From positions 1 to 57,460 of the forward strand of contig JAJDTB010000064.1 in assembly GCA_022827345.1 (NCBI GenBank): a stretch of 57,460 nt of DNA. Reading direction: 5' to 3'. The notes beneath the pieces were generated by a model. It did not search any database and was not told the origin of the DNA. It was given only the letters and a program-made list of their open reading frames with translations. Shown here in pieces: positions 6,766 through 12,264 of this stretch. The position numbers and the translations under genes were made by a program. The number at the start of each line of letters is the position of its first letter. Position 1 is the stretch's first letter. This stretch comes from Gemmatimonadota bacterium (GTDB lineage Bacteria; Gemmatimonadota; Gemmatimonadetes; Longimicrobiales; Gaopeijiaceae).

Positions 6766-6848
6766 TCTCGATGAGCGAGGATTCAAAGCGGGTGCGTTGC
6801 GGCCTGCTATATTCCCACATCGGTTTCCCCATTCTCAACGGAGTGGAC

Positions 6849-7760
6849 ATGCCTGAGGACTCGCGGAACGTCCCGGTGGGCCAATCCTGGCACCCGATCG
6901 ACGATCTCCCCGAAGACTGGGAACGGCTCGTCGACTCCGATCTGCAGCGGCTTGCCGATTACTGGCAGGAGAACCGCGACCGGCTTGGCGCGGAAGGAGC
7001 CGTCGCCGAATTCAACGAGCGATTGAAGCGCGAGTGGGCGATCGAGACGGGACTGATCGAACGCGTCTACACCCTGACCCGCGGAATCACGGAAGTCCTG
7101 ATTGAACGCGGGCTGCGCGAGGAGTTCATCCCCTCTTCAGCCACGAACCGGGATCCGGGACTCGTCTTCGACATGTTGCAGGATCATGCCGCCGCGGTGG
7201 ATGGGCTGTTCGATTTCGTGAAGCGGGAGCGTCGGCTGTCGACGAGCTACGTCAAGGAACTGCACGCGGTGCTTCTGGCCCATCAGGACACCGCGAGCGC
7301 CCGCGATATCTTCGGGCGGCGCGTAGAGATGCCTCTCATCAGAGGGGAATACAAGCAGCGCCCCAACAACCCGGTCCGGCCGGACGGCCGCATCCATGAG
7401 TACTGCCCCCCGGAGCAGGTGGCTTCCGAAATGGACCGGCTCCTCGAAATGCACCTGGAGCACGGAGAACGAGGGGTGCCGCCCGAGGTCGAAGCCGCGT
7501 GGCTGCATCACCGCTTCACGCAGATCCATCCCTTCCAGGACGGAAACGGCCGCGTCGCTCGGGCGCTGGCCACGTTGGTCATGATCCGCGCAGGATGGTT
7601 CCCGCTGGTCGTTACCGATGCCGGGCGGGCGGACTACATCGACGCACTGGAGCTGGCGGATGCAGGCGATCTGGGGCCGTTGGCGCGCCTGTTCTCCGAC
7701 ATTCAGCGGCGGGCGTTCGAAGGTGCAATCAGCATCGCCCGGGAGGAACGCGCGCGCTGA
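6849..7760 (+). CDS. Fic family protein (predicted AMP-transferase)
   Basis: Predicted 303 residues. The catalytic motif HPFQDGNGR (residues 227-235) is complete, so transfer of a nucleotide monophosphate to a protein hydroxyl is expected. The beta-hairpin flap region before it (IRGEYKQRPNNPVRPDG) fits the family. T67-x-x-x-E71 (ETGLIER) resembles the inhibitory (S/T)xxxE(G/N) helix of self-inhibited class II Fic proteins, but the last position is R. Start chosen at 6849: GGAG lies 5 nt upstream and a TATATT -10-like box sits at 6808-6813. An upstream ATG at 6771 would add 26 residues that do not resemble Fic sequence. Target unknown. Neighbours include an ADP-ribosylglycohydrolase. Confidence 0.88.
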   Translation: MPEDSRNVPVGQSWHPIDDLPEDWERLVDSDLQRLADYWQENRDRLGAEGAVAEFNERLKREWAIETGLIERVYTLTRGITEVLIERGLREEFIPSSATNRDPGLVFDMLQDHAAAVDGLFDFVKRERRLSTSYVKELHAVLLAHQDTASARDIFGRRVEMPLIRGEYKQRPNNPVRPDGRIHEYCPPEQVASEMDRLLEMHLEHGERGVPPEVEAAWLHHRFTQIHPFQDGNGRVARALATLVMIRAGWFPLVVTDAGRADYIDALELADAGDLGPLARLFSDIQRRAFEGAISIAREERAR

Positions 7761-10351: not shown

Positions 10352-10408
10352 GGAGTGGTGGCGGCCAAATTGCACCCAATGCGTCGGTTTGTCGTCATAA
10401 ATTATTTC

Positions 10409-10440
10409 AAAGTAATGTATACTTTACAAAATGTAATGTA
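10409..10440. repeat. AT-rich island with two GTAATGT repeats 21 bp apart and nested palindromes
   Basis: GTAATGT occurs at 10412-10418 and 10433-10439, again 21 bp apart, in inverse orientation to the pair at 6737-6764. AAAGTA/TACTTT (10409-10414 and 10420-10425) and TTACA/TGTAA (10424-10428 and 10432-10436) are inverted repeats inside it. The island lies between convergent genes (10352-10461), where no promoter is needed for either flanking gene. Confidence 0.4.
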
Positions 10441-10461
10441 AACATAACATAAATGGTCAGG

Positions 10462-11040
10462 TTAGTCACCCAGCAACTTTGCCAGGTCCCTCCACATCTT
10501 GTCGAACGAAGGCGCTCTGCGCGCCGCGTTGAGGTCAAGTCTTGCTGAAAGCGCCGCCTGATCGAGGGTGGGGCGGTAGCTTCTGCCCGATGGCATCCGC
10601 GCACTCAGCCACCCCTTCGCGTCCCGGATTGTCTCCACATCCGGGGGAGACATGACGGAGTCCGCGACGCCTCGTACTCCGGCGATCGACTCGGCCGCGG
10701 CCAGGAACCACGACTCGTATTCCGACTTTGCCAGGACGGTGAAGACGCGGCGGTCCGGGCGAGTCTGCTCGGCTCTTTCGAGCAACCGGGGTGCCAGTTC
10801 CGCAGGACAGGCGTCGTCGGCGTCGAGCAGGATAAGGATCGACCCGTCCGTACCGGCCTGACGGGCCGCGAGCTCGACGGCTCGTTCAAGTTCTCCCGGC
10901 TTCAAGAACCTGTCACGCTTCACTCTGATTGGGCGCGGGATGTGCACAGCATACCCCAAGGTGGCCGCGATCCGCCGGACCAACAGCGGAACCGCCTCCA
11001 CCTCCCCGTGACCCTCTACAACAATCGCTATCGTTGTCAA
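10462..11040 (-). CDS. DUF4276 family TOPRIM-like protein
   Basis: Predicted 192 residues. A TOPRIM-like signature is visible: glutamate E9 in VVEGHGE and an acidic cluster D73-A-D75-D76 in ILILLDADDA; SEYESWFLAAAESI further on is typical of DUF4276. Such folds coordinate Mg2+ and in OLD-type systems act as nucleases. The only possible start is TTG at 11040-11038: upstream codons hit a stop, and later starts would delete the E9 motif. It lies 11 nt after the AAA ATPase gene on the same strand, so the two are almost certainly co-expressed. Partner to that ATPase; activity unproven. Confidence 0.72.
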   Translation of the reverse strand: MTTIAIVVEGHGEVEAVPLLVRRIAATLGYAVHIPRPIRVKRDRFLKPGELERAVELAARQAGTDGSILILLDADDACPAELAPRLLERAEQTRPDRRVFTVLAKSEYESWFLAAAESIAGVRGVADSVMSPPDVETIRDAKGWLSARMPSGRSYRPTLDQAALSARLDLNAARRAPSFDKMWRDLAKLLGD

Positions 11041-11051
11041 TGGCTCACGGA

Positions 11052-12260
11052 CTAGCGCTTGTAGTCGAAGAGATCACGCTGGTTTAGGCTGAGCCTTGAG
11101 AGAGTGGGATCCGGCTCCAACTGATCCATCCTGAGGAGTTCCCCCACGGTATAGAGATGATCTCTGAGAGCAGAGCGCCCGATGTTGTCGAGCGGGCCGA
11201 TCCGGCTCTCGCCGTCCTCGGAAACGACCGCAAGGATGGATTCATCCGGAATCTCGTCACTGTCCAGCAGGTCAGCACTGTGACTCGTTACCAGCACCTG
11301 CGTATGTTGAGCGGCGTCCTTTAGACTGTCGACCAGAATACCGGCTGCTGCGGGGTGAAGCGCGACCTCCGGCTCTTCGATGCCCACGAGCGACCGCCTC
11401 TTCCCGTTGCCGTCCGCTCCCTGGAAAAGAGCGACCAGAATGCCGATCGTGCGCAGTGTGCCATCGGACATGCTACTCCCGTAGAAACGCCAGGGGTGCT
11501 TCGTCTTGCCGACACGCTGCCGGAATTCCAGCGTCTCCATGTTGCCTACCGGTTTCCGGTCGACCCGCGTGATCCCAGGCACCACTTTGCCGAGATACTC
11601 TTCGATCCGCGCCTTCGTTGCCGGGCTGCGTGCGGACATCCCAGCGAGAACACTGGCAATGTTGTTACCATCGCGGTTAAGCAGTTCACCTGGATCGGGG
11701 GGCTGGAATGCCCTGATCGCGGTGGGACTCAAGTTGTAGAACCCTGAGTGTGACAGGGCGTCGTAGACAGGACGAAAAGCGTCGAGTCCCGACGTGTTTA
11801 TCAGGTAGAGACGATCTGAGGATGCGGCGGGCCGGGGTGAAAAGCTGCCAACGACGTTCCCCCGGAAAACGCGATAGTAGTGGGACAGACCGTCGCCCCT
11901 TGGCACCACAACACATTCCTCGTCTTGAACTTCGTGTCCGCCTCCCTGCTTGGCTCCCACGTTGAACGCATAGTGGCCGGTGGACTCGCCCAGGTCGAAC
12001 TCCATTCGGATACCGAAATGGGTTGGATGTCCGCTGGAGCGTCGTCGTACCTCGTTGATTCCCCCTCGATCCCGCAACGCGTGATCAATGGAGAAACGAA
12101 GGGAGTCCGCGACGAACCGGAGCGCATCCAGGAAATTGCTCTTCCCCGAACCGTTGGGGCCCACCAGAAAAGTCAGTTGGGCGGGTTCGACATCGCAAGC
12201 CGCGATGCTCTTGTAGTTTCTGAGCTTTACGCGCCTTAGGAGCCGCCTGTCCTCCCCCAT
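11052..12260 (-). CDS. AAA family ATPase, OLD/RecF-like (AAA_21 type)
   Basis: Predicted 402 residues. ABC/SMC-class ATPase elements appear in order: Walker A GPNGSGKS (34-41) after the usual KLRNYKSI opening, an ABC-signature-like MSDGTLRTIG, Walker B GIEEPE (about 293-298), and the switch histidine in VLVTSHSADLLD (about H327). The pattern matches the ATPase half of OLD, PARIS (AriA) and related two-gene systems. Start at ATG 12260, just before the conserved N-terminal strand; TTG at 12284 would add 8 residues and overlap the formate dehydrogenase gene. The gene follows the formate dehydrogenase stop by 4 nt, although no functional link is known. Confidence 0.82.
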   Translation of the reverse strand: MGEDRRLLRRVKLRNYKSIAACDVEPAQLTFLVGPNGSGKSNFLDALRFVADSLRFSIDHALRDRGGINEVRRRSSGHPTHFGIRMEFDLGESTGHYAFNVGAKQGGGHEVQDEECVVVPRGDGLSHYYRVFRGNVVGSFSPRPAASSDRLYLINTSGLDAFRPVYDALSHSGFYNLSPTAIRAFQPPDPGELLNRDGNNIASVLAGMSARSPATKARIEEYLGKVVPGITRVDRKPVGNMETLEFRQRVGKTKHPWRFYGSSMSDGTLRTIGILVALFQGADGNGKRRSLVGIEEPEVALHPAAAGILVDSLKDAAQHTQVLVTSHSADLLDSDEIPDESILAVVSEDGESRIGPLDNIGRSALRDHLYTVGELLRMDQLEPDPTLSRLSLNQRDLFDYKR

Positions 12261-12264
12261 GAAT

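Follow-up and report, generated by a model that had tools for sequence, protein, structure and literature searches.

The window analysed here, i.e. the whole stretch of 57,460 nucleotides of contig JAJDTB010000064.1 from a Gemmatimonadota bacterium, carries two adjacent genes on the minus strand behind fdhA, which encode an OLD/ABC-type ATPase and a DUF4276 protein (Table 1). We could confirm both open reading frames of the initial annotation together with the Walker A motif, the EEPE Walker B motif and the switch histidine described there. The DUF4276 frame starts with a TTG at 11040, 11 nt beyond the stop of the ATPase on the same strand, and ends with its stop at 10462. Compared to a contig of Gemmatimonadetes bacterium jk18x9bins.40 (L004), whose proteins are 96% (ATPase) and 89% (DUF4276) identical, dN/dS was 0.077 for the ATPase and 0.163 for DUF4276, and thus both genes are under purifying selection and are not chance ORFs. 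A second, diverged ATPase/DUF4276 pair is present in the same genome on contig C13.

Table 1. Features of the ATPase/DUF4276 locus, given in positions of the window.
Feature	Position	Strand	Evidence
OLD/ABC-type ATPase, 402 aa	11052..12260	-	PADLOC HEC-01A; Pfam AAA_21
DUF4276 protein, 192 aa, predicted OLD-type TOPRIM nuclease	10462..11040	-	PADLOC HEC-01B; PF14103; model pLDDT 89.6
Walker A GPNGSGKS, ATPase residues 34-41	12138..12161	-	sequence; G34, N36, G39 and K40 each in 46/46 aligned partner ATPases
ABC signature SDGT, ATPase residues 265-268	11457..11468	-	S265 and G267 in 46/46
Walker B EEPE, ATPase residues 295-298	11367..11378	-	sequence; E296 44/46, P297 45/46, E298 44/46
Switch His327 in TSHS, ATPase	11280..11282	-	H 36/46, Q 9/46
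DUF4276 E9, positional counterpart of OLD E400 and AriB E26	11014..11016	-	E in 50/53; structure alignment ranges
DUF4276 E13, spacing like OLD E404	11002..11004	-	E/D in 39/53
DUF4276 D73-A-D75, counterpart of the TOPRIM DxD	10816..10824	-	D73 50/53; position 75 D/E 38/53, Y 12/53
DUF4276 E107-Y-E109, where the helical part begins, spaced like OLD T506-x-E508	10714..10722	-	E109 53/53, E107 34/53
Junction of fdhA stop and ATPase start, 4 nt; pair appended to the fdh operon	12261..12264	-	

In a Pfam profile search the ATPase matched AAA_21 (101 bits) and its neighbour matched DUF4276 (PF14103, 58.5 bits vs a cut-off of 30.2). The Pfam label of AAA_21, putative AbiEii toxin, was rejected as a clue to function, as this is a general ATPase profile with 36 matches in the genome and matches in all 14 control genomes. 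Using the PADLOC profiles, the ATPase was identified as HEC-01A (PDLC04178, E 7.5e-159, 527 bits, residues 5–398 of the protein on positions 6–394 of the 399 in the profile) and the DUF4276 protein as HEC-01B (PDLC04196, E 5.2e-77, 256 bits, residues 1–190). Because both proteins match these profiles over their full length, the pair is, judged from its sequence, a member of the already catalogued candidate defence system HEC-01. The initial annotation had suggested a candidate defence system and a PADLOC check; the suggestion stands, with the correction that the system is already in the PADLOC catalogue. HEC stands for Hma-embedded candidate, and antiviral activity of several HECs is reported in PMC12988326, where HEC-06 is the one named. 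HEC-01 is named in the searched text of PMC12724379, the only relevant paper in the searched literature to do so. This literature, which excluded the source preprint of HEC-01, contained no report that we could find on HEC-01 activity and no paper mentioning DUF4276 or PF14103. As HEC-01 was already catalogued, the novelty is modest, and the gain lies in the mechanistic assignment of DUF4276 and in the evidence from its site and context.

A structure model of the DUF4276 protein was built from five sequences (pLDDT 89.6, pTM 0.87). The model of the ATPase reached a pLDDT of 43 and was left out of the comparisons; the closest solved relatives of this protein are ABC ATPases of the OLD/PtuA type. 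In VIA-align, the top row for the DUF4276 model was the C-terminal region of OLD from B. pseudomallei (6nk8_A, Z 9.1, rmsd 4.5, 168 aligned), a Z near 8–9 being only moderate by VIA-align's own note, and further rows were OLD from X. campestris (Z 8.5, 8.3 and 7.7) and the PARIS chain 8ux9_A (Z 7.2, 146 aligned). OLD gives the longest alignments of this table, and many of the other rows are short Rossmann-like domains with a Z of about 7. Foldseek with the same model against the PDB gave nothing below E 0.001, its top rows being unrelated Rossmann-like folds with OLD not singled out, and the DUF4276 sequence gave two matches only against solved structures, with E above 1. In BFVD the nearest viral fold was an RloB-like protein (probability 1.00, TM 0.54).

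According to PMC6755086 the metal ligands of OLD are E400, E404, D455, D457, T506 and E508, and PMC12409363 gives E26 as the catalytic glutamate of AriB. If the first strand is gapless and AriB is chain A of 8ux9, the alignment offsets place E9 of DUF4276 on OLD 400 and on AriB 26, and E9, E13, D73, D75, E107 and E109 match the six OLD ligands in order and in spacing pattern. All six acidic positions are kept in the window protein. Among the 53 homologues of at least 170 aa (out of 63) over which conservation was counted, these acidic residues have not been lost, E9 and D73 each being present in 50 and E109 in all 53; the DxD is not universal, with Tyr at position 75 in 12 of them. Profile–profile comparison with OLD TOPRIM gave a score of 38 and a probability of 69% for the window group and 52% for all DUF4276, with reversed decoys at 24.5% or less and one reversed decoy scoring 30.6 over 7 columns. 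The same comparison was weak between DUF4276 and RloB (1–19% probability) and gave no signal between RloB and OLD. The description of DUF4276 as TOPRIM-like is supported by the predicted model, which is nearest to the TOPRIM-plus-helical domain of OLD, and by the acids at the OLD ligand positions, and we regard DUF4276 as a probable, not a proven, stand-alone OLD-type TOPRIM with TOPRIM core and helical domain. DUF4276 is a family of unknown function, and its link to the OLD TOPRIM, with six positions corresponding to known metal ligands, gives what was a catalogue entry a mechanism that can be tested with mutants.

The ATG of the ATPase lies 4 nt past the fdhA stop, in agreement with the described location directly behind a metabolic operon, and the junction is similarly tight in G019 (on both contigs), G021 and G033 and about 30 nt long in G016. 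We found fdhA in 56 of the 121 genomes of the family and examined 19 of the 20 fdhA genomes of the genus, our own included, leaving out G025, where fdhA borders the end of a contig. Five of the 19 have the pair immediately behind fdhA (the window's own genome, G016, G019, G021 and G033), G024 has a remnant of it and 13 lack it; it is therefore not shared by all relatives that have fdhA and does not belong to the constant gene set of the fdh operon. All genus genomes in which the ATPase was detected (E up to 1e-30) carry it at fdhA. In other genomes the interval between fdhA and FTHFS is empty or holds ARH or other cargo. The GC3 of the pair (0.69/0.75) is below that of SSS, FTHFS, ARH, fdhA, fdhD and the NuoEF-like gene (0.88–0.94), with Fic as exception (0.79), and together with the variable interval this supports the earlier impression of an insertion. 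Two fdhA-site clades are seen in the tree, which requires two changes, and one or two acquisitions followed by later loss fit equally. In the metagenome-assembled genome G019 the pair exists in two versions, each on its own contig and with DUF4276 shortened in one of them; G019 is possibly a strain mixture. The initial annotation had also seen Fic and ARH as accessory-gene surroundings, which was not borne out: both are resident and occur at the site in genomes without the pair, so they give no evidence of an island around it, and we rejected them as its partners as both occupy the region in relatives lacking it.

Several other features of this site deserve mention. The Fic protein (window 6771–7760) shows weaker SoFic/PDC-S04 matches, and several relatives have it conserved in the same position. 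Between the convergent genes for DUF4276 and ARH, in a region of 60–70% GC, lies an AT-rich element with TTACATT/AATGTAA repeats (10375–10455) that might be regulatory or belong to an insertion site; stretches resembling it are found behind DUF4276 in L060 and L062 and behind fdhA in L054, where the site is empty. A two-gene cargo (100 + 156 aa) is located behind fdhA in G028 and G030 (L066, 7900–8666, minus strand, and L068), its first gene occurring twice in L068, and Pfam gave no match for the L066 copies. Cargo between fdhA and FTHFS frequently consists of beta-propeller proteins (L057, L061, L062, L063 and L071), the one tested being DUF5128.

Within the phylum, PF14103 is present in 38 of 395 genomes at 63 distinct places, two of which have less than 60 bp of upstream DNA, leaving 61 readable loci. 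Walker A and/or Walker B of a partner ATPase was found at the expected distance upstream and on the same strand in 55 of these, one of them also having a Walker-A-like motif downstream. The upstream motif is missing in the remaining six (G037 (2236640), G036 (518853), G018 C12, G014 C336, G310 C1 and G031 C122), several of which are short fragments. The distances of ATPase and DUF4276 correlate with r 0.935 over 46 pairs kept of 63, a value reached in 0 of 2000 permutations and to which shared species history contributes, and nearest neighbours agree in only 23 of the 46. In the Nannocystis relative of the ATPase (L006, 5953–7250) the reading frame shifts near the C-terminus, which is a frameshift or a sequencing error.

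Close relatives of the pair are also found inside defence loci. The pair lies ahead of DrmA, DrmB and DrmC in G340, between DrmMI and DrmA in G036, with DrmD and DrmB in the same locus, and ahead of DrmA in an Acidobacteriota contig (L008), and in a Lentisphaerota contig (L005) it is flanked by a type III methyltransferase on one side and a ResIII protein on the other, i.e. it lies within a type III restriction locus. In G037 there is a cytosine methylase nearby, and in some relatives the pair adjoins feoB-like genes. The adjacency to DISARM is exceptional, as at least 2 of 19 DrmA genes (390 genomes) have DUF4276 upstream in the fetched flank, a lower bound since some flanks may end inside drmA, and the window pair itself is joined to a metabolic operon and is not part of a defence island. 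The occurrence in DISARM and type III restriction loci gives a concrete idea of what HEC-01 may guard. The DISARM locus of G036 (L139) contains, along with DrmMI and DrmD, two similar HEC-01 ATPases, with the DUF4276 frame beside one of them appearing broken. The window's own genome has a DrmA match at a contig end (G000 contig C60:151-924, L196) and may thus possess DISARM separate from the pair. On plasmids, DUF4276 relatives were limited to three Streptomyces plasmids (only 3 hits in 72,556 records), of which the one examined has an AAA ATPase gene ahead of the DUF4276 relative. Phage cargo was rejected as an explanation, as the scanned IMG/VR viral contigs contained no DUF4276 relative and ATPase relatives occur in only 3 of 50,697 phage records.

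As the most likely mechanism, and one we consider quite probable, we propose that the pair is an HEC-01-type two-gene conflict module in which an ATPase-held TOPRIM nuclease would be freed on infection. The OLD-type ABC ATPase would be sensor and keeper, and DUF4276, as a stand-alone OLD-type TOPRIM nuclease of TOPRIM core and helical domain, would carry a two-metal site. In the uninfected cell the ATPase would keep this nuclease inactive; upon a phage cue it would release or activate DUF4276, which would then cut nucleic acid (host tRNA or DNA), and the cleavage would stop phage production, probably along with the cell. We suggest an ATPase-held effector because of the analogy with PARIS, AbiL and the AAA-neutralised TOPRIM_OLD toxins: according to the respective sources ariA and ariB of PARIS are separate genes (PMC10568477), PARIS cuts tRNA (PMC12409363) and two-gene TOPRIM_OLD proteins behave in E. 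coli as toxins neutralised by their AAA partner (PMC10440598). That the two proteins form a complex, that the ATPase inhibits and releases the nuclease and that the pair acts against phages is what we infer, as are nuclease activity, substrate and trigger. It is conceivable, if rather unlikely, that HEC-01 is a guard whose ATPase senses a phage inhibitor disarming DISARM or restriction and frees DUF4276 as a tRNA-cutting OLD-type TOPRIM RNase. If this were true, DUF4276 would join PARIS and AbiL as a third, independent lineage of two-gene OLD/TOPRIM systems that has its own trigger, and the copies behind fdhA would stand alone and be expressed from a housekeeping operon.

An OLD- or Gabija-like direct restriction, in which invading DNA is attacked by DUF4276 as a DNase, loaded or licensed by the ATPase, and no suicidal step is involved, would agree with OLD, a DNA nuclease, as the best structural match and with the OLD/PtuA-type ABC ATPases as closest solved relatives of the ATPase. 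We nevertheless find it doubtful, since PARIS, which is also a two-gene system of ATPase and TOPRIM, is described as cutting tRNA (PMC12409363) and the two-gene TOPRIM_OLD proteins as toxins neutralised by an AAA partner (PMC10440598). The fixed two-gene order, the position 4 nt after fdhA and the relatives on Streptomyces plasmids would fit a plain toxin–antitoxin or stability module that lacks any phage role and uses the fdh operon to be expressed. We judge this quite improbable, as relatives occur within DISARM and, in a type III restriction locus, separate its two halves.

That DUF4276 might be a catalytically dead TOPRIM-like regulator and not a nuclease is suggested by the replacement of D75 by Tyr in 12 of 53 homologues; with E9, D73 and E109 nearly invariant and six acidic positions kept in the window protein this appears very unlikely. 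We give hardly any credence to a function in formate metabolism with the pair belonging to the fdh operon. All five genus genomes with the ATPase do have it directly behind fdhA, but 13 of the 19 with a readable site lack the pair and one has a remnant only, the same pair occurs elsewhere beside feoB-like or DISARM genes, and its GC3 is foreign.

The proposed ATPase-held nuclease can be compared with several known systems. With HEC-01 the pair shares full-length profile matches of both proteins and adjacent genes on one strand, and differs in lying behind fdhA and not within Hma. It resembles OLD of class 1 and class 2 (GajA) in the type of ATPase, in the predicted TOPRIM plus helical domain and in metal-ligand spacing, whereas OLD is one polypeptide and here two separate ORFs are present; a GajB helicase was not seen adjoining the pair. 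As in AbiL (AbiLi and AbiLii/RloB), an ATPase is combined with a small effector, here a predicted TOPRIM, an RloB-like protein is the best viral fold and the motif run is similar (EG..E, D.D, E.W), but DUF4276 gave no match to the RloB profile (PF13707) in the Pfam search. PARIS has an OLD-type ATPase and a TOPRIM nuclease on separate adjacent genes, the plan predicted for the pair, and 8ux9_A aligns over 146 residues with E9 on 26; in contrast, the DUF4276 protein has 192 aa vs 306 residues in the PARIS chain and does not match an AriB profile. For AriB, which we take to be DUF4435, no effector profile was found, as Pfam gives only DUF4276 and a weak Glycos_transf_2 and AriB is absent from the 13 families that PADLOC lists at E up to 1, and the AriA profile PDLC02980 matches the ATPase with 96 bits, far below the 527 bits of HEC-01A. 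By their effector profiles the two genes fall outside PARIS and AbiL, yet we propose that they work like them.
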